NCBI GenBank assembly: GCA_029624735.1
Contig: JARSSM010000022.1
Location: 62,001 to 126,000, forward strand
Source: Defluviicoccus sp.
GTDB taxonomy: Bacteria > Pseudomonadota > Alphaproteobacteria > Rhodospirillales > Defluviicoccaceae
Direction: 5' to 3'
DNA: 64,000 nucleotides
Shown in pieces: positions 8,510-45,029 of this stretch (the stretch's first letter is position 1; the number at the start of each line of letters is the position of its first letter). A program made the translations under genes and the position numbers. The notes under the pieces were generated by a model. That model was not told where the DNA came from. It made no database searches and saw nothing but the letters and a program-made list of their open reading frames with translations.

Positions 8510-8813
8510 GGGCAGTGCCGCCGGCCGCGGGCCGCCGTTGCTGGAAGAAGAAGCGCTGGAGATTGTAGGCAAGGTTGGCGGGGCCGGTTGTGGCTTCCAT
8601 CCTGCCTGCCCATCGCCAGGTATCCAGCCCGGCGGCGCTGGCGGTCGAAGTTCTCGAACAACTGCCGGATCATAGGCCGGGCGACCGCCCGTCGCGCCGG
8701 CCGAATAGGCGAACGCTTCCTCAAGCAGCGGCCTGAATGCCTCGAAATCGATGACTCGCCTCGGAGAGCCCCTTCAAGTGACCCGGCAGATCCAAGAATC
8801 CAAGCTGCTTCAT
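8510..8813 (-). pseudogene. IS5-family transposase relic with internal deletions and frameshifts
   Basis: Reading the minus strand gives three transposase pieces in the correct order but in different frames. An N-terminal MKQLGFLDLPGHLKGLSE begins at 8813. Next comes VIDFEAFRPLLEEAFAY and GGRPAYDP (about 8750-8675). A middle piece LFENFDRQRRRAGYLAMG (about 8660-8600) and a C-terminal ANLAYNLQRFFFQQRR (about 8580-8530) follow. The catalytic DDE centre is missing, so the element is dead. This explains most of the ~490-bp gap between the nir operon and the antiporter. Terminal inverted repeats were not identified. Confidence 0.75.
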
Positions 8814-8966
8814 GGCCCCTCCTCAACGGAGCCATCGAATCACAAATTGGCCCGAACGGCGCGGTAAATGGCGGCGTCCAGCTGTCGCTCGGGTGAAACG
8901 GGCGGGCTTTTTCGCCATATCAGGATCAGCCAGGCCCTCCTCGATCGTCGCCAGAAAGATCAGCCG

Positions 8967-10808
8967 ATGCCGCATGAAACGGTCCTAATCACCACGATCG
9001 TCGTCGGTCTGGTGCTCGCTTTCGCACTCGGTTTTGTGGCCCATCGTCTGCGGTTGCCGCCGCTCGTCGGCTATCTCCTTGCCGGGGTAGCCGTCGGTCC
9101 CCACACTCCTGGTTTTGTCGCGGATACGGAGCTTGCGCTCCAGCTTGCCGAAATCGGGGTAATCCTCTTGATGTTCGGCGTCGGTCTGCATTTTTCGATC
9201 AAGGATCTGTGGGTCGTGCGCGGCATTGCGGTGCCGGGCGCAGTCGCGCAAATCGCGACAGCGACGGCTATCGGCGCAGTGCTGGCGCACTTTTTCGGTT
9301 GGAGTCTCGGAGCGGGCCTCGTCTTTGGCCTCGCCCTCTCGGTCGCGAGCACTGTCGTCCTGCTGCGCGCGCTTGCCGAGCGACGCGCGCTTGACACTGC
9401 CAACGGCCAGATCGCAGTCGGCTGGCTGATCGTCGAGGACCTCGCCATGGTGCTGACGCTCGTGCTGCTGCCCTCGCTGTCGTCAGTTCTTGCCGACGGC
9501 ACCGCAGCATCGGGATCCCCGACCGCCTGGAATGACATTGCCCTCTCCCTCGCCGTTACCCTTGGCAAGGTTGCGATCTTCGTCCTCTTGGTATTGGTGG
9601 TCGGGAGGCGGCTGATCCCCCGCCTTCTCGCGATGGTTGCCCGCGCCGGTTCACGTGAACTGTTCACCCTTTCGGTGCTGGCAATCGCACTCGGAATCGC
9701 TTACGTCGCGGTCGATTTGTTCGGCGTCTCGTTCGCCCTCGGCGCCTTCTTTGCCGGCATCGTGCTTAGCGAGTCCGACCTCAGCCATCAGGCCGCGGCC
9801 GATATGCTGCCGCTGCAGGACGCATTCGCGGTATTGTTCTTCATTTCCGTCGGCATGCTGTTCGATCCCTCGATCCTGTTGCAGTTTCCATGGTCGGTCG
9901 CGGCAGTGGTGCTGGTCATCATCTTTGGCAAGTCGATTGCCGCCTTTGCCATCGTCCTTGCACTCGGGCGCCCCGTGGCCACGGCGTCGACCGTATCGGC
10001 GAGCCTTGCACAAATTGGTGAGTTCTCGTTCATCCTCGCCGCGCTTGGCGTGGCACTCGGTTTGCTCCCGGAGGCGGGCAAGGACTTAATCATCGCCGGC
10101 GCATTGCTGTCGATTACGCTCAATCCTTTCGTTTTTTCGACCTTCGACAGACTGACAGCGTGGCTGCAGCGGCGGCCCGGATTGCTGCGGCGTCTGGAAC
10201 GGCGGGATCTTGGTGCGAATGTAGCGACGAGCGAGGGCAGGACGCTCGGCCAGATGCGAGATCACGCCGTCATCATCGGCTGCGGCCGGGTTGGCGAGGC
10301 GATTGCTCGGGCGCTGAACGTCTGGGAGTTGCCGTTTGTCGTCGTCGAGCGTGACCGCCAGCTCGTCGAGCACCTGCGCACGCACGGTATGCACGTCGTT
10401 TTCGGCGACGCAACAGCACCTGGGATTCTGACGGTCGCCGGCATCGATCGCGCGCGTTTGCTGATCATTGCGACCGCCGAAGCCAGCGCCGCCCGGCAGA
10501 TGCTCAACCTCGCCCGCAAGGCTAACCCCGAGATCGACACTGTCGTTCGCACCCACAGCGAGGTCGAACTCGCTCACTTGGAACAAGAGGGGATCGGCCT
10601 TGCCGTGCTGGCGGAGCGGGAGCTGGCCCTGGGCATGATGGGATACGCACTGAGAAGCCTGGGCCTGAGCGAAGGCGAGGCGCGTCTCTTCGTGCAAAGC
10701 TCACGGCGCTTCGATGACGCCGGGATGATCCCGCAGCCGAAGGCTACCGAAGGAGCGCCAGAACTGCGTCCGCGCCGAGAAAGCGCTGGCGAGGCTGGGA
10801 ACTCCTGA
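8967..10808 (+). CDS. CPA2 monovalent cation:proton antiporter with TrkA-N domain (KefB/YbaL-like)
   Basis: 613 aa. The first ~390 residues form the Na+/H+ exchanger membrane domain, with about 12 hydrophobic helices and conserved segments such as LPPLVGYLLAGVAVGP and ALGAFFAGIVLSESD. A cytoplasmic TrkA-N NAD-binding domain follows (HAVIIGCGRVGEAIARAL near residue 430), then a C-terminal tail. Such proteins expel K+ or Na+ in exchange for H+. The ATG at 8967 precedes MPHETVLITTIVVG, the usual YbaL-like N-terminus; upstream codons encode no family sequence. It is not obviously in an operon. It may relate to the K+ uptake genes further on, but this is only an inference. Confidence 0.88.
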   Translation: MPHETVLITTIVVGLVLAFALGFVAHRLRLPPLVGYLLAGVAVGPHTPGFVADTELALQLAEIGVILLMFGVGLHFSIKDLWVVRGIAVPGAVAQIATATAIGAVLAHFFGWSLGAGLVFGLALSVASTVVLLRALAERRALDTANGQIAVGWLIVEDLAMVLTLVLLPSLSSVLADGTAASGSPTAWNDIALSLAVTLGKVAIFVLLVLVVGRRLIPRLLAMVARAGSRELFTLSVLAIALGIAYVAVDLFGVSFALGAFFAGIVLSESDLSHQAAADMLPLQDAFAVLFFISVGMLFDPSILLQFPWSVAAVVLVIIFGKSIAAFAIVLALGRPVATASTVSASLAQIGEFSFILAALGVALGLLPEAGKDLIIAGALLSITLNPFVFSTFDRLTAWLQRRPGLLRRLERRDLGANVATSEGRTLGQMRDHAVIIGCGRVGEAIARALNVWELPFVVVERDRQLVEHLRTHGMHVVFGDATAPGILTVAGIDRARLLIIATAEASAARQMLNLARKANPEIDTVVRTHSEVELAHLEQEGIGLAVLAERELALGMMGYALRSLGLSEGEARLFVQSSRRFDDAGMIPQPKATEGAPELRPRRESAGEAGNS

Positions 10809-29331: not shown

Positions 29332-30663
29332 GTGAGCTTCACAAACGCGCATCCAGAAACCCTGGCCTTGCACGCTGGCTACCGCGCTGACCCGGCAACC
29401 GGCGCCGTCGCGGTGCCGATCTATCAGACGACGTCTTATCAGTTTCAGCATACCGAGCATGCCGCCAATCTGTTTGCGTTGAAGGAACTCGGGAACATCT
29501 ACACACGGATCATGAATCCCACGACCGACGTCCTCGAAAAGCGAATTGCAGCGCTGGAGGGTGGCGTTGCGGCACTTGGCGTCGCGTCGGGTCAGGCAGC
29601 TTCGGCAGTGGCCATTCAGAACCTCGCCGTTGCCGGCGACAACATCGTGAGTTCGACCGATCTCTACGGCGGCACCTGGAACCTCTTCGCCAACACGCTG
29701 AAGCAGCAAGGCATTGAGGTGCGGTTTGTCGATCCTGTGGACCCTGAAAACTTCCGCCGCGCCACCGATGCCCGCACCCGTGCCTACTACGCCGAGACGC
29801 TGCCCAATCCCAAGCTAACGGTCTTTCCGATCGCCGAAGTCGCGGCGATCGGGCGCCCGCTCGGCATTCCGCTGATTGTCGACAACACGGCAGCGCCAAT
29901 TCTGGCCCGGCCGTTCGATCACGGCGCAGCGATCATCGTCTACTCCACAACCAAGTATCTCGGCGGCCACGGCACGTCGATCGGCGGGGTTATTGTCGAT
30001 GGCGGCAACTTCGACTGGGCAGCGCACCCTGAACGCCAGCCGCTCCTGAACACCCCCGATCCCAGCTATCATGGTGCGGTGTGGGTCGAAGCAGTCAAGC
30101 CATTGGGTCCCATCGCCTACATCATCAAGGCACGGGTCACCCTGCTGCGCGACCTTGGGCCGGCGCTCAGTCCGTTCAATGCCTTCCAGGTCATCCAGGG
30201 CATCGAGACGTTGGCGCTGCGCATTCAACGCCACAGCGAAAACGCTCAAGCAGTTGCCGAGTTTCTGACGGCCCAACCGCAGGTGAAGCGGGTTGTCTAT
30301 CCAAGCCTGCACAAGGGCGAGCAGCGGCGGCGGGCGGAGACGTACCTCAAAGGCGGTTTCGGCGGCCTCATCGTCTTCGAGTTGGAAGGGGGGCGCGAAG
30401 CGGGCCGCCGATTCATCGACGCGCTGCAGCTCTTCTACCACGTCGCCAACATCGGCGATGCGCGTTCCCTCGCCATTCACCCGGCGACGACGACGCACTC
30501 ACAGCTCGACGAAACTGAACAGTTGAAAAGCGGTGTTGGCGAAGGTGACGTGCGGCTGTCGATCGGCATCGAGCACATCGACGACATCATCGCCGATCTC
30601 GACCATGCCCTCGCCGCCGTCGCGGTAGTTACGGCCGCCGCGCCAAGCCGATGGCCTATGTCA
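29332..30663 (+). CDS. metY: O-acetylhomoserine/O-acetylserine sulfhydrylase
   Basis: About 443 aa from a GTG preceded by GGAGG. Cys/Met PLP family with ETLALHAGYRADPATGAVAVPIYQTTSYQF, GVASGQAASAVA and the PLP lysine in YSTTKYLGGHGT (K208). Length and the internal insertion (ERQPLLNTPDPSYHG) match the MetY subfamily, which makes homocysteine (or cysteine) directly from sulfide. It follows cysE by 11 bp and is the last intact gene of the island. The frame closes at the TGA just after 30660. Confidence 0.9.
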
Positions 30664-30815
30664 TGAACGGCCCGCGCCAGCGCGACTAGAGCCCGGCGTC
30701 GGACGGCTATCTCGCTTCGATCGCCGACGGCTACCGCGACTTCGGCTTCGAGGATCTGGCTCCCTTGCGCGCGGCGCAGGCCGATGCGATTACCCTGGCT
30801 CGCCGCGACGGTTGA
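30651..30815 (+). pseudogene. Remnant of a gamma-glutamylcyclotransferase-like (AIG2/ChaC-type) gene
   Basis: One frame reads MAYVMNGPRQRD, an in-frame TAG (30687-30689), then SPASDGYLASIADGYRDFGFEDL up to TGA at 30813. The pattern Y-L-A-x-I-x-x-G-Y-R-D-F-G-F is characteristic of the C-terminal end of gamma-glutamylcyclotransferase-like proteins. The catalytic N-terminal part is missing, so this is a 3' fragment with a nonsense codon. Confidence 0.55.
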
Positions 30816-30829
30816 TTGGCAGGCATCGT

Positions 30830-31005
30830 TCACGATACTGCGAACTCGCCCGCCACCGCATCCGGCGCCACCTTCGCCTTGAAATCCGCCGTGAACCGAC
30901 GCCGCGTTCTCATCGCGTATCCCTCCGTCATCCGGCGGAATACACCTCAACCCCCTGTCCGATTTCCCGGGGCCACCTCAGAGCGCCACCGCCCAATTGG
31001 GCCGA
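30830..31005 (-). pseudogene. IS3-family element relic: terminal repeat and start of orfA
   Basis: On the minus strand a TGAGGTGGCCCCGGGAAATC-type terminus (near 30980-30961) is followed by an ORF from 30913: MRTRRRFTADFKAKVAPDAV, stopping at 30830. R-R-R-F-T-x-D-F-K-A-K-V-A is the N-terminus of IS3-family OrfA (HTH) proteins. Everything downstream, including OrfB, is gone. It abuts the degenerate kdp-leader copy, suggesting this spot has repeatedly been a rearrangement junction. Confidence 0.6.
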
Positions 31006-31226
31006 CGCTGTATATGAGATTCCTATGCGATGGGGCTCCCTTCCGCATCGTTTCCTTACGCGGGCTCATGCCATCGTCGGGTGAAACGAAGGCGGGCTCG
31101 TGATGCTCGATGTCCTTGCTCTGGCTGCTATCGCCGCGGCGTTCACGGCCACTTAAGCCTACGCGTACCGGTGCGAAGGGCTGTGAGCGATCCCATGCTG
31201 ATCGATTACGTGCTAGGCGGCGGGGC
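31001..31226 (+). repeat. Degenerate upstream copy of the kdp leader
   Basis: This 226-bp stretch matches 33169-33394 base for base at a constant offset of 2168 bp without indels, with only a scatter of substitutions. In this copy the ribosome site AAGGAGGG has become AAGGCGGG and the 27-aa ORF is cut short by TAA after 17 codons; the kdpF homology ends after ~15 codons. The non-coding part (31011-31080) is almost unchanged. It now lies ~100 bp upstream of the CorA-like gene. Confidence 0.9.
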
Positions 31227-31325
31227 ACGGGGATTGGGGTAAGCGATTTGCCGACGTTACGGCTGCTGAGCCTGCGGTTCGCGAGTTAAGCTGCGTGGAG
31301 ACGGGTGTCGGGAGTATGAGGACGC

Positions 31326-33023
31326 ATGGACGCCGCAGATGAACAAAAGGCCGTAGCCGACCAAAAGATTGTCGATTGCTTCCGCCAGATCCTGTTCTGG
31401 CCCCTGCAACTGATGCAGATCCGGCCAAGCCCCCTGAGCCCCGAGCGCTGGACACTGCTTGAAAACGCCCGGCCGTCTTGCCCCTGGCAGCCTGAGCCCG
31501 AGGCGTTTAGCCCCAACCCTGAGCAGTTTCGCGAACGCCATTACATCGAGTTCATCACCTTCCTGCCCTACGTGCAGCGGTTGCTCTACGGCGAAGGCGG
31601 AGGGCCACAGGCGACGCTACATGGTCGCTCGCCGATTCGCGTCTTCCGCCGGCGTGACGTTACCCATGCCCAACTCGTTTTCCCGGGCGATGATGCGGTG
31701 CTGCGCCTCGAAGTCGCCCGGTGTGAACTTCTCTTTTTCTACGATCTCGACATCGTCATTCTGGTCGTGGAAACCCGCGGCGACGGTCTCACTCTGCAGC
31801 GTGCCCAGGAGGTGATGTTCCGGTTCGGCCGCGCCTACCCCCATTTCTGGCACGCCGACGGCCGGCCATCAAACTGCATGAAGCGCGTCGCTTGGCTCGC
31901 AGCCGACGGGTCGGAATTGGCGGCCTCCGATTATGAATGCCGGGAACGCTACTTGAGGTTCGTCTCCTCGCACCGCGCGCCCTGCATCGCCTCTCACTGG
32001 GAGTTCCTGCTCGATCCGCTGGTTCCGCACTACTCAGATAAGCAGGGGCCACTGCGCGTGCGGCAGCTCGAATACCATCGGATGCCGCTCATGGCCTATC
32101 TTGCCGTCGACGACATGCAAAAGCTTACCCGCGCTGACTTTATTCGCCTCGGCCTGGTGACACATCCTGGCGATTCCACGGCATTGCCCTTTGCCAGCGG
32201 CTACCTCGACGACTTCGAGCGCCGCTTCTGTTATGACCGCTTCCATGACAGCCGCGCGAGCCGGCTGGCGAGCGACACCCGCCTCATGTGCTGCGGTCAC
32301 GCCTTCGTCATGGTCGGCAATAACGGCTACCCCTTCTTTGGCGATACGGAAACCGGTCTCGCCGCGCAATTCGACCATCCCTACTTTGTGCTCGGCCTGG
32401 TCGCGCACATGCACAAGGCGACGCTGCTAATGCTGCGCGACCGCTTGAACGGCGCGGTCAATCAGCTTGACCTGGGCAATGTCAACTCGATCAAGGCCTT
32501 CAAGCGCAGCATTCGCAACACCATGGAGGTCTTTCTGCGCTTCACCCATCGCTACTGGTTCCGGGAGATCTCGATACAGGTGCAAGCACGCGACCTGTTT
32601 CATCTTTGGCGCAATCACCTCAGCACAGAGGAGTTGTACACGGAGGTGCGTCAGGAAGTTCACGACATGAGCACCTACTTGGACAGCGACGGACTCAGAC
32701 GTCAGGCCGATACGGTTCTCAGGCTGACCGTTGTCACCGTGTTCGGCCTGATCGGGACATTCGCGTCGGGCATCCTGGGAATGAACATCTTCGACGAAAC
32801 CGGCCATCCGCCTCTCGTCAAGTTACTCATTTTCTTGGTGGTGGCCGTCCCGGCAACGCTGCTGATACTGTACACTGTGACCAAGTCTAAGCCGCTATCC
32901 GACTTCCTTGACGCGTTGTCCGACGAGCGCATCGGCCTTCCTGCAAAGTTTGCCGCTTTGGCCGATGTCTGGCGACGCAGGGTGCGGGCCTCGCCTGGAG
33001 CGGGAGACCGGGACGGCGCTTGA
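31326..33023 (+). CDS. CorA-like membrane transporter protein
   Basis: 565 aa. A long cytoplasmic N-terminal region (~450 residues) is followed by two C-terminal transmembrane helices (about 460-490 and 500-522). The CorA signature GMN (GILGMNIFDE, near residue 485) sits at the end of the first helix. CorA proteins are pentameric Mg2+ channels, normally ~320 aa; this one is much longer and its N-terminal domain is divergent, so the transported ion is uncertain. It lies between two copies of the kdp leader, which suggests a link to K+ or cation homeostasis. Confidence 0.75.
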   Translation: MDAADEQKAVADQKIVDCFRQILFWPLQLMQIRPSPLSPERWTLLENARPSCPWQPEPEAFSPNPEQFRERHYIEFITFLPYVQRLLYGEGGGPQATLHGRSPIRVFRRRDVTHAQLVFPGDDAVLRLEVARCELLFFYDLDIVILVVETRGDGLTLQRAQEVMFRFGRAYPHFWHADGRPSNCMKRVAWLAADGSELAASDYECRERYLRFVSSHRAPCIASHWEFLLDPLVPHYSDKQGPLRVRQLEYHRMPLMAYLAVDDMQKLTRADFIRLGLVTHPGDSTALPFASGYLDDFERRFCYDRFHDSRASRLASDTRLMCCGHAFVMVGNNGYPFFGDTETGLAAQFDHPYFVLGLVAHMHKATLLMLRDRLNGAVNQLDLGNVNSIKAFKRSIRNTMEVFLRFTHRYWFREISIQVQARDLFHLWRNHLSTEELYTEVRQEVHDMSTYLDSDGLRRQADTVLRLTVVTVFGLIGTFASGILGMNIFDETGHPPLVKLLIFLVVAVPATLLILYTVTKSKPLSDFLDALSDERIGLPAKFAALADVWRRRVRASPGAGDRDGA

Positions 33024-33168
33024 TGGGCGGGCTGTGCGACGACCATCGACACTGCGGTGGCGGACCGCGTGTCAAGCACAACCGTTTTTGTCTTTCTTGA
33101 GCGATCGCGGACGCAGCGGCGGCCGGAAATGAGGCTGCCTTCAGCATAGGCCGTCCTCATCCCATTGG

Positions 33169-33394
33169 CGCGACGCCGTATATGAGATTCCTATGCGATG
33201 GGGCTCCTTTCCGCATCGTTTCCTTACGCGGGCTCATGCCATCGTCGGGTGAAACAAAGGAGGGCTCGTGATGCTCGATGTCCTTGCTCTGGCTGCTATC
33301 GCCGCGGCATTCGCGGCAACCGCAGCCTATGCGTACCTGTGTGAACGGCTGTGAGCGATCCCATGCTGATCGATTACGTGCTTGGCGGCGGGGT
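33169..33394 (+). repeat. Intact kdp leader (downstream copy of the direct repeat)
   Basis: Counterpart of 31001-31226. It contains a conserved untranslated segment (33179-33250), with possible pairing of ATGCG/CGCAT and of GCGATGG with CCATCG. The intact ribosome site AAAGGAGGG, the 27-aa ORF and the start of kdpF follow. The conservation of the untranslated part between copies hints at a regulatory role (promoter, KdpE site or RNA element), which is not proven. Confidence 0.85.
33271..33354 (+). CDS. 27-aa hydrophobic small protein ahead of kdpF
   Basis: Starts MLDVLALAAIAAAFAATAAY and ends AYLCERL: a single membrane-spanning segment with a short charged tail. The ribosome site AAAGGAGGG is strong, 6 bp before the ATG. 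Its stop overlaps the possible GTG start of kdpF. Similar tiny membrane proteins are found at the head of kdp operons in other Proteobacteria. The function is unknown; an accessory role at the Kdp complex is plausible. Confidence 0.6.
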   Translation: MLDVLALAAIAAAFAATAAYAYLCERL

Positions 33395-33452
33395 GGCGCT
33401 GATCCTTCTCGCCTATCTCGTCTTTGCTCTCGTTCGGCCTGAGCGGTTCTGA
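33363..33452 (+). CDS. kdpF: K+-transporting ATPase subunit F
   Basis: 29 aa, MLIDYVLGGGVALILLAYLV followed by FALVRPERF. This is the single-helix KdpF peptide that stabilises the KdpFABC complex, with the typical C-terminal RPERF. A GTG at 33351 would add four residues and overlap the preceding ORF. kdpA begins 12 bp downstream. Confidence 0.85.
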   Translation: MLIDYVLGGGVALILLAYLVFALVRPERF

Positions 33453-33464
33453 GGGAGTTGGGTC

Positions 33465-35168
33465 ATGACCATTGTGGGCTGGGTGCAGATCGCCCTTTAC
33501 GTGGCACTGGTCCTTGTGCTGGCGCGCCCGTTCGGCGGCTATATCACCCGCGTCGTGACCGGCGAGCGGACGATACTGTCGCCGGCGCTGGTTCCGATCG
33601 AGCGCCTCCTTTATCGCGCCGCTGGCGTCGATCCGCGCGTCGAGCAGCACTGGCTGACCTACGCGGTGGCGATGCTTCTGTTCAATCTCGCCGGCCTGGT
33701 CGTCCTTTACGCACTGATGCGCCTGCAGGCGGTCCTGCCTCTCAACCCGCAAGGAATGGCGGCGGTGCCGGCGGACCTCGCGCTGAACACCGCCACCAGC
33801 TTCGTCACCAACACCAACTGGCAGAACTACGGTGGCGAAGCGACGATGAGCTACCTGACCCAGATGGCCGGGCTCACGGTGCAGAATTTCCTTTCCGCCG
33901 CCACCGGCATTGCCCTCGCGGTGGCGCTGATCCGCGGCTTTGCCCGCAAGTCGGCGGCAACGATCGGCAATTTCTGGGTCGATCTCACCCGGATCACGCT
34001 CTACATCCTGCTCCCGCTGTCGTTCGCCATTGCGCTCGTGCTGGTGTGGCAGGGCATGCCGCAGAACCTTGATGCCTACGTTCAGGCTGCGGCTCTCGAT
34101 GGCGGGTCGCAGACGATCGCACAAGGTCCCGTCGCGAGCCAGGTCGCGATTAAGATGCTGGGCACCAACGGCGGCGGTTTCTTCAATGCCAACGCCGCAC
34201 ACCCTTACGAGAACCCGACGCCGCTCTCCAATCTGATCCAGATGGTTGCGATCTTTGCCATCGGTGCGGCCTTGACCAACGTCTTTGGCCGGATGGTGGG
34301 AGACGAGCGCCAGGGCTGGGCAATCCTCGGCGCAATGATGATCTTGTTCATCGCCGGGGTCGCCGTCACCTACTGGGCGGAAGCGCAGGCCAATCCGGCG
34401 CTGGCGGCGCTCGGCGTCGATCCCGCCGGCGGCAACATGGAAGGCAAGGAGGTCAGGTTCGGCATCACCCTTTCGGCCTTGTTCGCGACCATCACCACCG
34501 CAGCTTCGTGCGGGGCGGTGAACGCCATGCATGACAGCTTCCTGCCATTGGGCGGAATGATCCCGTTGATCAACATGCAGCTCGGCGAGGTGATCGTCGG
34601 CGGCGTCGGTGCGGGTCTTTACGGGATGCTCTTGTTCGCCATTCTTGCCGTGTTCATCGCCGGCCTCATGGTCGGCCGCACACCGGAATACCTCGGCAAG
34701 AAGATCGAGGCGCGCGAGGTAAAATTGGCGATGCTGGCGGTGCTTTGCCTGCCGCTGATGATGCTGGTGTTGACGGCGGTCGCACTCCCTCTCGGCGCTG
34801 CCAGCATCCAGGACCCGGGCCCGCACGGTTTTAGCGAGGTGCTATACGCCTTCACGTCCGCCGCCGCCAACAACGGCAGCGCCTTCGGCGGCCTTTCCGG
34901 AAACACGCCTTTCTATAACGCGACGTTGGCGTTGGCGATGTTCGTCGGCCGCTTCTTCGTCATCCTGCCCATGCTGGCCATTGCCGGCGCGCTCGCGGCA
35001 AAGACGACGCTGCACGCCTCGCACGGCACCTTTCCCACCGACGGACCGCTGTTCGTGGGTTTGCTCACCGGCGTCGTGCTCATCGTGGGCGGGCTCACCT
35101 TCTTCCCCGCTCTCGCCCTCGGACCGGTAGTGGAGCATCTCTCGATGCTCGCCGGGACAACTTTCTGA
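33465..35168 (+). CDS. kdpA: K+-transporting ATPase subunit A (K+ channel-like)
   Basis: 567 aa with ten or so transmembrane helices. K+ selectivity-filter-like loops include [38 protein letters not shown] and [13 protein letters not shown]. KdpA binds and conducts K+ in the P-type ATPase complex of the inner membrane. Length equals the family norm. It is the first large gene in kdpFABC-DE. Confidence 0.95.
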
Positions 35169-35182
35169 AAGATAATGGTGTC

Positions 35183-37303
35183 ATGACCAAGATGGTGTTG
35201 AGCCGCGGCGTCATCGCGACAGGAGACTCCGGTGGCGGCGCCCGTCGTGCGCGGCGGACGAAGAGCTCGATCTTCGACCGCGCGATCCTTGCCGATGCGC
35301 TCGTTGAGTCCATTCACAAGCTCCATCCGCGACGGCTCGCCCGCAATCCGGTGATGTTCGTCGTCGCCGTCGTCGCGGCGCTGGCAACGGTTCTGTTCAT
35401 CCGCGACTTGGCAGGCGGCGGCGCCAACCTGCTCTTCTCGGTGCAGATCATTGCCTGGCTGTGGATCACAGTGCTGTTCGCCAATTTCGCCGAAGCCGTC
35501 GCCGAGGGCCGCGGCCGGGCCCAGGCAGCGAGCCTGCGCAAGAGCCGCACCGAAACATCGGCCAAACTCCTCAACGACGTGGCGAACGGCACCTGGCGGG
35601 AGATCTCGGCGCTCGACCTCAAGCCGGGCGATGTCGTGCTAGTCGAGGCTGGCGACCTCATTCCCGGTGACGGCGAGGTGATCGAGGGCGTTGCCAGCGT
35701 CAACGAGGCGGCAATTACCGGCGAGTCCGCACCTGTCATTCGCGAGAGCGGCGGCGACCGCTCGGCGGTGACCGGCGGCACGCAGGTCATCTCCGACTGG
35801 ATCAAGGTGCGGATCACCGCCGCTGCCGGTTCGACCTTCCTCGACCGGATGATTGCGCTGGTGGAAGGAGCAGTGCGGCAGAAGACTCCGAACGAGATCG
35901 CGCTCAACGTGCTCCTCGCCGGCATGACCCTCATCTTCGTGCTCGCCGTCGTCACCATCCCCAGCTTCGCCACCTACGCCCAGGGAACGGTGCCGGTGAT
36001 CGCGCTGATCGCGCTGTTCGTGACGCTGATCCCGACGACCATCGGCGCGCTCTTGTCCGCGATCGGCATTGCCGGCATGGACCGGCTGGTGCGCTTCAAC
36101 GTGTTGGCGATGTCGGGCCGCGCCGTCGAGGCGGCCGGCGACGTCGATACGCTGCTCCTCGACAAGACCGGCACGATTACGCTCGGCAATCGGCAAGCAA
36201 CCGAGTTCATCCCGTTGCCGGGTGTGGATGCGCGCGATCTCGCCGATGCGGCGCAGTTATCGTCACTTGCCGACGAGACGCCGGAGGGGCGTTCGATCGT
36301 CGTCCTGGCCAAGGAAACGTACGGGATCCGTGGCCGGAAGATGGCGCCGTTGCATGCGCATCTGGTGCCATTTACGGCACAGACGCGGATGAGCGGCATC
36401 GACATCGACGGCCAGGAAATCCGCAAGGGCGCAGCCGACGCGGTGGTCAACTACGTCCGCTCCGCGACCGGTAACCGCCACATGCCGACGCCGCGGCCGC
36501 TGCAGGAAATCGTCGAACGCGTCGCCAAGGCCGGTGGCACCCCGCTCGCGGTTGCCCGTAACGGCCAGATCCTGGGCGTCATCCATTTGAAGGACATCGT
36601 CAAGGGCGGCATCAACGAGCGTTTCGGCGAATTGCGGCGAATGGGGATTCGCACCGTGATGGTCACCGGCGACAATCCTCTGACCGCAGCTGCGATCGCT
36701 GCCGAAGCCGGCGTCGACGACTTCCTCGCCGAAGCGACACCGGAAGCCAAGCTCAAGCTCATTCGCAACGAGCAGGCGCAGGGCAAGCTGGTGGCAATGT
36801 GCGGCGACGGTACCAACGATGCGCCGGCACTCGCCCAGGCCGACGTCGGCGTAGCGATGAACACCGGCACCATGGCGGCGCGCGAAGCCGGGAACATGAT
36901 CGATCTCGACTCCGATCCGACCAAGCTGATCGAGATCGTCGCCATCGGCAAGCAACTGCTGATGACCCGCGGCGCACTCACCACTTTCTCCATCGCCAAT
37001 GACGTCGCCAAGTACTTCGCGATCATCCCGGCGATGTTCGTTGCCTTCTACCCGCAGCTGCAGGCCCTCAACATCATGGGTCTCGCGAGCCCAGAAAGCG
37101 CCATCCTCTCCGCAATCATCTTCAACGCGTTGATCATCATTGCCCTGATCCCCTTGGCGCTACGCGGGGTTCACTATCGGCCGAGCAGCGCCGCCGCGCT
37201 CTTGCGCCGCAATCTCCTGATCTACGGCCTCGGCGGCATTATCGTGCCGTTTGTCGGCATCAAGCTGATCGATCTCTTCGTTTCCGCCGCCGGGCTTGCC
37301 TGA
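35183..37303 (+). CDS. kdpB: K+-transporting P-type ATPase subunit B
   Basis: 706 aa. It has TGES (179-182), the phosphorylation site DKTGT (D327), [14 protein letters not shown] and the hinge [20 protein letters not shown]. Seven predicted membrane helices. KdpB hydrolyses ATP to drive K+ uptake. The N-terminus is longer than in E. coli by about 20 basic residues. It follows kdpA by 14 bp. Confidence 0.95.
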
Positions 37304-37314
37304 AGGATAAGCCA

Positions 37315-37881
37315 ATGTTGAAGCAGCTTCGTCCCGCTCTGGTGCTCATCGTGTTGTTCACCGTCTTGACCGGCTTTCTCTATCCCTTCGCCGTCACCGG
37401 CGCGGCGCAAGCCGTATTTCCCGACCAGGCGCATGGCAGTCTCTTGAAAAAGGGAGACACGGTCGTTGGCTCGCGCCTGATCGGCCAAGCGTTCACGAGC
37501 GAGCGCTACTTCCATGGCCGGCCGTCCGCCGCCGGAACCGACGGCTACGACGCCGCAGCATCCTCCGGCTCCAACCTCGGCCCGACCAGCAAGGCGCTCA
37601 TCGCGCGGGTGCAGGGCGACGTGGCCGCCCTTGGTGTCAAGCCGGGAACGGTCGTACCGGCCGACCTCGCGACCGCATCGGCGAGCGGACTCGATCCACA
37701 CATCTCGCCCGCAGCGGCGGAGCTGCAGCTCACACGGGTCGCCCGCGCGCGCCATCTTGCAGCCGAGAGCGTTCGTGCACTTGTCCAGGCGCACACGAGC
37801 GGCCGGTTGCTTGGCATCATCGGCGAGCCGAGGGTGAACGTCCTCGAACTCAATCTCGCCCTCGACGCCACCAAGTCGTAA
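37315..37881 (+). CDS. kdpC: K+-transporting ATPase subunit C
   Basis: 188 aa. One N-terminal membrane helix ([21 protein letters not shown]), then the periplasmic domain with the family motifs [18 protein letters not shown], and [19 protein letters not shown]. KdpC assists assembly and ATP affinity of KdpB. AAGGATAAG precedes the ATG. Confidence 0.94.
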
Positions 37882-37930
37882 GCTTCTGGTGTGAGCGGCC
37901 TGCCAAGACGGCGCCGCGCTCAGGCAAGCA

Positions 37931-40651
37931 ATGTCCGACATCGAACCCCGTATCGACCAGCGTCCCTCGCCGGATGAACTCCTCAAGACAGCGCAGAAGG
38001 AGGAACGCGGTCGCCTGAAGATCTTCTTGGGCGCCGCGCCAGGCGTCGGCAAGACTTTCGAAATGCTGATGACAGCCCACGCCAGACAGCGCGAGGGCGT
38101 GGACGTTGTCGTCGGTGTCGTGGAAACCCATGGTCGGATCGAGACGGAACAGCTGTTGACTGGGTTGGAGGTCATTCCCCGGCGCGGCGTCGATTACCGA
38201 GGGATTACGCTCGACGAGATGGACCTGGACGCTGTGCTTGCCCGTCGCCCGAAGCTCGTCTTGGTTGACGAACTGGCACATACCAACACGCCGGGCTCGC
38301 GCCATCCCAAGCGCTACCTCGACGTCGAAGAGCTGCTTGCCGCAGGCATCGACGTGTTCACCACCCTCAACATCCAGCACGTCGAAAGCCTGAACGATGT
38401 CGTCGCCCGCATCACCCGCATTCGCGTGCGCGAGACGGTGCCCGACAGCATTCTCGATGCCGCCGACGACATCGAGGTCATCGATATTTCGCCGGACGAC
38501 CTCATTCAGCGGCTGAAGGAAGGCAAGATTTATGTTCCCCATACCGCGCAGCGGGCCATTGATCATTACTTCGCGCCGGGCAATCTGACTGCACTGCGGG
38601 AACTGGCGCTGCGGCGAACGGCGCAGCGGGTCGACGAGCAGTTGCTGTCGCACATGCGCAGCCACGCCATCCACGGTCCGTGGGCGGCCGGCGAGCGCGT
38701 GGTGGTGTGCATCAGTGAAAGCGAGCGCTGTGCCGCCCTGGTTCGCCAAGCGAAGCGGATGGCCGATCGGCTGCACGCGCCTTGGATGGCGCTCTACGTC
38801 GAGACCGCGCGCACCCAGCGCTTGACCGACGTCGAGCGCGACCGTGTCGCCGATTGCCAGCGGCTCGCCGAACGGCTTGGCGGCGAAGCCGTGACCATTC
38901 CCGGGCCGGACATCGCGGAAGAAATCCTTCGCTTCGCGCGCGACAACAACGTGACACAGATTGTCATCGGCAAGTCGAACCGCTCGCGCTGGTTTGAGGT
39001 GCTGCATGGCTCGGTCGTGCACGACCTCGTGCGCAAGGCAGGCGGCATCGGCGTCCACATCAGCGGCGGCGACGTATCCGATGGTGGCGAGGCGGCACCG
39101 CCGACGGCCGTTCCTTCCACGCTTACGAGGCAAGGCCCAGATGTTGTCGCCCATGCCGTCGCCCTTGCCGCGGTTGCCGCCGCCCTCGCGCTGGCACTGC
39201 TGCTGCAGCCGATCATGGGAATCGAGAATGTTGACCTGATCTTCCTCATCGCGGTGATCAGCATCGCCGGCCGCTACGGCCTGTGGCCCGCGATGGCAGC
39301 CTCCGTCACCAGCGTACTCGCGTACAACTTCTTCTTTTTCCCACCGATCTATACGTTCACCATCAACGATCCGAAACATGTCGTTGCCGTTGTGTTTTTC
39401 ATGTTAGCGGCGCTGATTGCGAGCAATCTTGCCGGCCGAACGCGCGACCAGGCGAACGCCATCCGTGTCCGCGCCCGCACATCGGAATCGCTCTACGCGT
39501 TCAGCCGCAAGATCGCGGGCGTGGCGACGCTCGACGACTTGTTGTGGGCGGCCGCGTTTCAGATCGCGTCGATGCTGAAGTTCAATGTCGTCATCCTGGT
39601 GCCGGAGGATGGGCAACTCCTGGTCCGTGTCGGCTACCCGCCGGAAGATCAGCTGGACGGGGCCGACCTCGCCGCCGCGCATTGGAGCTGGAAACACGAC
39701 CGGCCGGCCGGAAGGGGCGCCGAAACCCTGCCCGGCGGCAAACGCCTGTTCATACCCCTGCGCACGAATCGCGGCGCGGTCGGTGTCATCGGCATCGACC
39801 GCGAGCAAGCCGGGCCATTGTTCACTCCCGATGAGCGCCGTCTGCTCGACGCGTTGCTCGATCAGACCGCGGTCGCGATCGAACGGGTCCGGCTTGCGAA
39901 GGAGATCGACGAAGCGCGCATGCTGACCGAGACCGAGCGGCTGCGCTCCGCCCTGCTGGCCTCGATCTCCCATGACTTGTCGACCCCGCTTGCCGCTATC
40001 CTCGGTGCCGCGACATCTCTGCAGAATTACGACGGCTTGTACGACCCCAAGGCACGCCGCGATCTCGTCGACACCATCCGCGACGAGGGCGAGCGGCTGC
40101 ACCGCTTCGTGCGCAACCTCCTCGACATGACGCGGCTGGAGTCGGGCGCTATCGAACCGAGCCGGGAGATGATTGACGTCGGTGAGGCGATCGGCGCCGC
40201 GCTTGAGCGCTGCGGCCGGATGTTGATCCATCACCGGGTCGAACTCGACATCGAACCGGGCTTGCCGATGCTGCCGCTCGACGCGGTACTGCTTGAGCAG
40301 GTGCTGGTCAATCTTCTCGACAACGCCTCGAAGTACACGCCTGCCGGCTCGACCGTCTCGTTGCTGGCGAAACGGCAAGACGATTGCATTGTCGTGCATG
40401 TGCTCGACGAAGGAGCAGGGATCCCCGAGGTCGAGCTGGAGCGGGTATTCACCAAGTTCTATCGCTTGGATGCGGGCGACCTGAAGCAGCCGGGCACGGG
40501 CCTCGGCCTCGCCGTCTGCCGCGGCTTTGCCGAAGCGCTCGGCGGGACGATCACCGCCAGCAACCGTGCCGACCGCAGTGGTGCGGTATTTACGTTGAGC
40601 TTTCCGGAACGGCAGTCGGGCGAAAGCCGGCCCGCCGACGCGACCGCATGA
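37931..40651 (+). CDS. kdpD: Sensor histidine kinase KdpD
   Basis: 906 aa. The N-terminal KdpD domain has Walker A GAAPGVGKT (34-42), followed by a Usp-like domain (~250-370) and four membrane helices (~415-500). A GAF-like region precedes the kinase core with H681 in SISHDLSTPLAAILG, an N box LLDNASKYTP and G boxes. It senses K+ limitation or turgor and phosphorylates KdpE. Starts 49 bp after kdpC and overlaps kdpE by 4 bp. Confidence 0.94.
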   Translation: MSDIEPRIDQRPSPDELLKTAQKEERGRLKIFLGAAPGVGKTFEMLMTAHARQREGVDVVVGVVETHGRIETEQLLTGLEVIPRRGVDYRGITLDEMDLDAVLARRPKLVLVDELAHTNTPGSRHPKRYLDVEELLAAGIDVFTTLNIQHVESLNDVVARITRIRVRETVPDSILDAADDIEVIDISPDDLIQRLKEGKIYVPHTAQRAIDHYFAPGNLTALRELALRRTAQRVDEQLLSHMRSHAIHGPWAAGERVVVCISESERCAALVRQAKRMADRLHAPWMALYVETARTQRLTDVERDRVADCQRLAERLGGEAVTIPGPDIAEEILRFARDNNVTQIVIGKSNRSRWFEVLHGSVVHDLVRKAGGIGVHISGGDVSDGGEAAPPTAVPSTLTRQGPDVVAHAVALAAVAAALALALLLQPIMGIENVDLIFLIAVISIAGRYGLWPAMAASVTSVLAYNFFFFPPIYTFTINDPKHVVAVVFFMLAALIASNLAGRTRDQANAIRVRARTSESLYAFSRKIAGVATLDDLLWAAAFQIASMLKFNVVILVPEDGQLLVRVGYPPEDQLDGADLAAAHWSWKHDRPAGRGAETLPGGKRLFIPLRTNRGAVGVIGIDREQAGPLFTPDERRLLDALLDQTAVAIERVRLAKEIDEARMLTETERLRSALLASISHDLSTPLAAILGAATSLQNYDGLYDPKARRDLVDTIRDEGERLHRFVRNLLDMTRLESGAIEPSREMIDVGEAIGAALERCGRMLIHHRVELDIEPGLPMLPLDAVLLEQVLVNLLDNASKYTPAGSTVSLLAKRQDDCIVVHVLDEGAGIPEVELERVFTKFYRLDAGDLKQPGTGLGLAVCRGFAEALGGTITASNRADRSGAVFTLSFPERQSGESRPADATA

Positions 40652-41337
40652 GCGGCGACGGCCCGCTTATCCTCGTCATCGACGACGAGCCGGCGATTCG
40701 GCGGTTGCTGCGCACGAGCCTTGCGGCCCAGCGTTATCGCATCAGCGAGGCCGAGACCGCCGCAGAAGGGGTTCGCCGCACGCGCGCCGACCGGCCCGAT
40801 GCGGTCATCCTCGACCTGGGCCTGCCCGACCAGGACGGTATTGGCGTCATCCGCACCCTGCGCGGCTTCTCGAAGGTTCCGATCATTGTGCTGTCGAGCC
40901 GTGGTGATGAGCGCGGCAAGATCGAGGCGCTTGATCTCGGAGCCGACGACTACGTCACCAAACCCTTCGGAATGGGCGAATTGATCGCTCGCATTCGGGC
41001 CGCGCTGCGTCACCGCGTCCAGGACGAAGGCGCCGAGCCGCTCTTTACGAGTGGGGACCTGGCCGTCGATCTGGTCCGCCGTTTCGTCACGATCGGCGGT
41101 GAGGAGGTCAAGCTGTCGCCGAAGGAGTACGATATCCTGCGGCTGCTGGTGATCCACGCCGGCAAGGTGTTGACCCATCGCATGATCATGCACGACGTCT
41201 GGGGCGCGGCCGGCGACGTCCAGTACCTCCGCATCTACATCCGCCAGCTCCGCCAGAAGCTGGAACGGAATCCCGAGCGGCCGGCGCACATCGTCACCGA
41301 GACCGGCGTCGGCTACCGCCTGCGCCTGCCGGAATGA
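40648..41337 (+). CDS. kdpE: Response regulator KdpE
   Basis: 229 aa. Receiver domain with DDE at 12-14, phospho-acceptor D56 in VILDLGLPDQDG, and VTKPF. The OmpR/PhoB winged helix follows (KLSPKEYDILRLLVIHAGKVLTH). The ATG overlaps the kdpD stop (ATGA). It activates the kdpFABC promoter. About 250 bp after its stop hold no recognisable gene. Confidence 0.94.
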   Translation: MSGDGPLILVIDDEPAIRRLLRTSLAAQRYRISEAETAAEGVRRTRADRPDAVILDLGLPDQDGIGVIRTLRGFSKVPIIVLSSRGDERGKIEALDLGADDYVTKPFGMGELIARIRAALRHRVQDEGAEPLFTSGDLAVDLVRRFVTIGGEEVKLSPKEYDILRLLVIHAGKVLTHRMIMHDVWGAAGDVQYLRIYIRQLRQKLERNPERPAHIVTETGVGYRLRLPE

Positions 41338-41585
41338 GTCGGGCGCGCAGGCGAGATCCCGTCAACCATGCGCGCCGTTTCGCGCCCCTCCGATGCGATG
41401 GGTGGCCGCGACTGGTACGAACGGGCCAGGGCGATGCACGGTGCGCGAGAAAACCACGAAGCGCGTGGTTGACGCGCCGGCGGTCGGAGGCCGCGCACGC
41501 TCGCGCCAGGCTCACGCGGTACCGGTGAGAGCGTCGCCCCCTGACCTTTCCGTGTGCCGCTCGCCAGAGAAGCCGGAGGATCGTT

Positions 41586-44953: not shown

Positions 44954-45029
44954 GGCGCGCCCGAGAGGACTCGAACCCCTAACCTTCTGATCCGTAGTCA
45001 GATGCTCTATCCATTGAGCTACGGGCGCA
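44954..45029 (-). tRNA. tRNA-Arg (ACG anticodon)
   Basis: 76 nt on the minus strand. The acceptor stem GCGCCCG pairs with CGGGCGC, the D-arm is AGCTCAATGGATAGAGC, the anticodon loop is CTACGGA (anticodon ACG, inosine-modified to read CGU/C/A), and the T-loop is GGTTCGAGTCC. The CCA end is encoded (44956-44954). No integrase lies nearby. Confidence 0.95.

Follow-up and report, generated by a model that had tools for sequence, protein, structure and literature searches.

A second copy of the predicted KdpE-controlled kdp promoter stands ahead of a CorA-superfamily gene located directly before the kdp operon

The promoter and leader of the kdp operon are present twice in the stretch of 64,000 nucleotides analysed here (the window), once before kdpF and once ahead of a CorA-superfamily gene that itself lies directly before kdp. 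We lean towards the view, as the more probable one, that the upstream copy functions as a promoter which depends on KdpE and drives the CorA-like gene, and that its transcript may run on into kdp. The second copy of the KdpE-controlled promoter would now be standing ahead of an acquired gene, and under K+ limitation KdpD/KdpE, the products of the operon's own genes at 37931-41337, would bind each copy at its 11-bp direct repeat. The upstream copy would then start transcription of the CorA-like gene and the downstream copy that of kdpFABCDE, and since the stretch from the CorA-like gene to kdp contains no predicted terminator, the upstream transcript may continue into the operon. KdpE binding, the K+ response and the read-through are all inferred from sequence.

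The duplication comprises 233 bp aligned without gaps (30993-31225 with 33161-33393) at an offset of 2168 bp, with 18 mismatches. An earlier note had described an indel-free repeat at this offset flanking the CorA-like gene, and the present comparison bears this out, the extent being 233 bp in place of the 226 bp then given. The core (31010-31223) contains 14 of the mismatches, and the outermost 17 bp on the left are weak. The repeat takes in the kdp promoter, an upstream ORF of 27 aa and the beginning of the kdpF coding sequence; the features of the two copies are as follows.

30993-31225 (core 31010-31223), + strand: upstream copy of the kdp promoter/leader, ungapped, 92% identity to 33161-33393
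31012-31029, + strand: predicted KdpE operator of the upstream copy, ATATGAG (31012-31018) and CTATGCG (31023-31029), 11 bp apart, same as in the kdp copy
31048-31062, + strand: predicted core promoter box of the upstream copy (TCGTTTCCTTACGCG), the box lying 32-34 bp past the second half-site in a comparison of 12 promoters
31103-31156, + strand: broken small ORF (MLDVLALAAIAAAFTAT, then stop) with a damaged Shine-Dalgarno at 31093, from translation and comparison
31195-31242, + strand: truncated kdpF remnant joined to foreign sequence (MLIDYVLGGGARGLG, then stop), from translation
33161-33393, + strand: kdp copy of the promoter/leader, from comparison with the upstream copy
33180-33197, + strand: predicted KdpE operator of the kdp copy, ATATGAG (33180-33186) and CTATGCG (33191-33197), kept upstream of kdp in relatives
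33216-33230, + strand: predicted core promoter box of the kdp copy (TCGTTTCCTTACGCG), same 12-promoter comparison
33271-33354, + strand: intact 27-aa membrane-peptide ORF upstream of kdpF, kept in relatives, without a family model

A whole-genome search with the repeat returned matches at these two places only. Four relatives, congeneric or from the same family (G002, G003, G004 and G008), each have a single leader copy, preceding kdp, and the two-copy arrangement is unique to the present genome among those compared. An assembly artefact is ruled out, since the copies differ at 18 sites and both lie inside a 299-kb contig. The repeat is also not the target-site duplication of a transposon. Such duplications are short (a few to about 14 bp) and flank an element with a transposase and terminal inverted repeats, whereas here the repeat is about 220-233 bp and encloses nothing but the CorA-like gene. 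When a sequence-only model of the leader was run with strict filters against 385 genomes of the class, only four genomes matched, which is put down to rapid divergence of the leader and to the strictness of the filters. A weak leader-like match was also seen in G336 (L139:1501-1573), up to about 400 bp from where kdpE ends and before an unrelated-looking gene; it is possibly another KdpE target.

The best-conserved piece of the repeat is TATATGAGATTCCTATGCG, found at 31011-31029 and 33179-33197, and the right part of the TCGTTTCCTTACGCG box begins 33 bp past the second half-site. Half-sites and core box are unchanged between the two copies. The same layout stands before kdp in G002, G003, G004, G008 and G124; three Azospirillum species, Rhizobium acidisoli and Acetobacter pasteurianus have it too, though with a less similar sequence. 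The spacing is always 32-34 bp, the half-sites of this cross-species comparison having been placed by eye. In G003 the half-sites are identical to each other (CTATGCG-N4-CTATGCG), and R. acidisoli has TTTATA-N5-TTTATA at the operator position, which is essentially the E. coli KdpE site. The E. coli sites are two 6-bp direct repeats, TTTATA and TTTACA, with 5 bp between them (PMC3264566), while the half-site here is NTATGNG. In Sinorhizobium fredii, KdpE binds its own kdpF promoter region (PMC9239096). Since the layout recurs at kdp promoters of other Alphaproteobacteria, the spacing is E. coli-like and the S. fredii KdpE binds its kdpF promoter region, we read the first element as a predicted KdpE operator and the second as a predicted core promoter. 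The operator pattern has only two matches with up to three mismatches in the 3.4 Mb genome. In each of G002, G003, G004, G008 and G124 the site before kdp matches it best, and in G001 and G058 there was no match with three or fewer mismatches. The KdpE-controlled kdpFABC promoters of E. coli and S. fredii have in common with this locus an 11-bp-period direct repeat before kdpF, with KdpD/KdpE encoded in the same locus; what sets the present genome apart from both is that a second complete promoter copy precedes a CorA-like gene.

The CorA-like gene has the same orientation as the upstream core box and starts about 265 bp past it (the repeat lies about 0.3 kb upstream of the gene), with a plausible ribosome site, GAGGA, ahead of 31326, and no terminator is predicted on the + strand between the upstream promoter and the gene (31010-31326).

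The translated parts of the upstream copy have fared differently from its promoter elements. The Shine-Dalgarno is altered from AGGAGG to AGGCGG at 31093, the small ORF is stopped by an in-frame TAA at 31154-31156 and the kdpF fragment passes into foreign sequence after about 10 codons. These ORFs are, to judge from their translation, dead and non-functional, as the earlier note had stated for the coding parts of this copy. The damage is also what would be expected under the main rival explanation, namely that the rearrangement joining the CorA-like gene to kdp left the upstream copy as a decaying by-product without function, and that the gene has its own promoter in 31226-31325. We regard this as unlikely, yet as the strongest competitor. 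In its favour, the upstream copy carries more changes (about 9 polarised changes against about 2 on the kdp copy, read from alignments with G002 and G004 as outgroups), and this faster change, which fits decay too, must be counted against a working upstream promoter. The mismatches are moreover clustered and are not sorted by coding and non-coding sequence: 10 of the 14 core mismatches fall within 38 bp (31141-31178; p = 0.0002 for clustering), and there are none in 31094-31140, which is coding (the first half of the small ORF), or in 31179-31214. Against decay, every promoter element is unchanged and the family of the downstream gene is found repeatedly in kdp operons (see below). In addition, a sigma-70 consensus scan of 30600-33600 found no promoter, a weak test that is uninformative for activator-dependent promoters.

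The earlier note had also taken preservation of the non-coding part of the upstream copy to suggest that this part still works. Preservation itself is seen, with 1 mismatch in the 78-bp regulatory block against 13 in the remaining 136 bp of the core (Fisher p = 0.02), a contrast that is driven by the single 38-bp mismatch cluster. The first half of the small ORF (31094-31140) and the start of kdpF are preserved as well as the untranslated part. Since the mismatches concentrate in one 38-bp stretch, non-coding preservation is weak evidence of selection on the upstream copy, and a mismatch pattern without a clear sign of selection likewise counts against a working promoter. The regulatory block differs at 1 site between the copies and at 7 between the kdp copy and G002. 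Over the core the copies diverge by 6.5% as compared with 9.8% (21 of 214) between the kdp copy and G002; the duplication is therefore probably younger than the split from G002.

The earlier note had further proposed an RNA structure in 33179-33260, and this finds no support. A search of the leader against Rfam at gathering and permissive thresholds gave no match, the kdp copy folds no better than its shuffles (z = -0.55), the predicted folds differ between the copies and among relatives, and in the consensus fold of the leader alignment the covariation term is a penalty (+2.47). That the leader is a structured regulatory RNA, a riboswitch or attenuator of which the CorA-like gene received a copy, is the least probable of the explanations considered here: single leaders can be folded on paper and the upstream copy reaches z = -1.4, but the pattern of conservation is in keeping with an operator in the DNA whose half-sites are 11 bp apart. 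On this evidence the conserved part of the leader is promoter DNA and not an RNA element. The sole Rfam match in the window is a tRNA gene at 44956-45028 (- strand), about 3.6 kb past kdpE.

The genes of the kdp operon are placed as follows.

33363-33452, + strand: kdpF (Pfam PF09604, TIGR02115)
33465-35168, + strand: kdpA (Pfam PF03814)
35183-37303, + strand: kdpB (ORF list, tblastn to other kdp operons)
37315-37881, + strand: kdpC (ORF list, tblastn)
37931-40651, + strand: kdpD, sensor kinase (Pfam PF02702 and others)
40648-41337, + strand: kdpE, response regulator of OmpR type (translation, tblastn)

The neighbours of the kdp block (33174-41355) differ in each relative (L027, L028, L029, L030), and the kdp neighbourhood of G002 is found on another contig in the present genome, so that kdp has, by this comparison, often been relocated within the group. 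Rearrangement being common here also suits the view that the upstream copy is a by-product. The limits of the block are the leader and a point just past kdpE, as if it moved as a unit. The present structure would result either from integration of a DNA circle carrying the leader and the gene, through homologous recombination within the leader, or from a tandem duplication followed by deletion. The membrane peptide of about 27 aa (33271-33354), usually ending in CERL or CDRL, stands directly before kdpF across the Alphaproteobacteria examined and is also present in L152, L153, L154, L155, L156, L157, L027, L028, L030, L031 and L138; it is mostly without annotation and no Pfam or NCBIfam model matched it. 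ORFs of similar size precede kdpF in gammaproteobacterial loci.

The gene between the two copies is the following.

31326-33023, + strand: CorA-superfamily gene, 565 aa, GMN at residues 485-487, two C-terminal membrane helices (ORF list, Pfam, alignment, structure model)

With the CorA / MRS2 / ZntB superfamily of divalent-cation channels its product shares the C-terminal two-helix membrane part, the GMN motif and a long stalk helix; it differs in its length of 565 aa, in a longer N-terminal region and in a Pfam CorA score below the cut-off (19.3 bits against a gathering threshold of 27). An NCBIfam search with the window protein gave no match, and all 27 aligned family members match Pfam CorA at E<=0.01 (best 7.7e-11). 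G485-M486-N487 is invariant across the 27 aligned sequences and ends the first of the two C-terminal membrane helices, both of which are present in the AlphaFold model (mean pLDDT 81.5). CorA structures are the top Foldseek matches of this model (probability 0.97, E 2e-3), and in the VIA structure comparison CorA reaches a middling Z of about 8 (157 residues), a score that unrelated helical proteins equal. The transported ion would, as the superfamily default, be Mg2+ or another divalent cation. The protein keeps 68 of the 74 columns that are invariant in all others, and the gene is, by this alignment, intact. In the tree it stands on a long branch without close relatives, consistent with acquisition of the gene from outside the genus. 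There is no CorA-like gene at the kdp locus of G002, G003, G004 and G008 and none anywhere in the genomes of four congeners, and the flanks of the gene (31226-31325 and 33024-33173) had no match to anything when searched.

A search for this CorA-like family across 84,980 species, made without reference to kdp, yielded 80 loci, of which 11 carry kdp genes on the fetched piece with the CorA-like gene in or beside the kdp operon (L095, L097, L101, L102, L105, L108, L113, L115, L130, L131 and L132). A rough chance expectation is about 0.5 of 80 loci, taking kdp as about 10 kb, a genome as about 4 Mb and the loci as up to 15 kb. Several of the linked loci have the order kdpA-kdpB-kdpC-CorA-like, and there is a 4-bp overlap of the CorA-like gene with kdpC in L097, L105, L113 and L115 and with kdpD in L130. 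In the tree the kdp-linked members form three separate groups, namely Competibacteraceae, Thiobacillus/Hydrogenophilales and the Nitrospira locus L108, in which kdp is divergent from the CorA-like gene; the window protein is a fourth. The link is not obligatory, since in 69 of the 80 loci the gene was not seen near kdp, and this too speaks against shared control. RA.bin98, UBA3908 and SCELSE-2-Con have two CorA-like genes, one in kdp and one elsewhere, and the plasmid copies in Azospirillum and Vitreoscilla do not adjoin kdp. The literature searched gave no report of a kdp operon with a CorA-like member; the S. fredii paper has a corA label in a promoter figure (PMC9239096).

In L097, L101, L130 and others the gene of this family lies between kdpC and kdpD and is tied to kdp expression by position, whereas here it lies upstream of kdp with its own promoter copy. 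The earlier proposal that the CorA-like gene shares the K+ control of kdp gains mainly from the intact KdpE-type promoter in both copies and from the CorA-like genes in kdp operons elsewhere, while the preservation argument originally offered for it is weak. It could be that the upstream copy serves chiefly as an additional, distal promoter for the entire operon, the CorA-like gene just happening to lie within the transcript, and the lack of a predicted terminator between that gene and kdp would allow this. Since the kdp copy is complete by itself, and since the CorA-like gene has stayed intact and is conserved, we consider it very improbable.

If the upstream copy is indeed a promoter for the CorA-like gene, this would be a case of regulatory recruitment observed as it happens, in which a whole promoter responsive to a two-component system has been copied before an acquired gene. 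It would also mean that a channel family has separately been tied to potassium starvation in several lineages, and the K+/Mg2+ balance under K+ limitation would be directly testable. More tentatively, and at a little short of even confidence, we propose that this large CorA-like channel family is a recurrent partner of Kdp that was brought independently under KdpE control in several lineages, by a place inside the operon in Competibacteraceae and relatives of Thiobacillus, by a divergent position next to kdp in one Nitrospira and by promoter duplication here. Such a partnership would couple divalent-cation flux to potassium starvation.

In two of the linked loci, kdpC and the CorA-like gene are separated by a gene whose sequence looks, by eye, PtsN-like (EIIA) (L130:5860-6342 and L131:5714-6262); EIIA-Ntr is known to bind KdpD (PMC9239096). 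In L105 an ORF resembling an ordinary CorA (8766-9785) directly follows the kdp-linked CorA-like gene.
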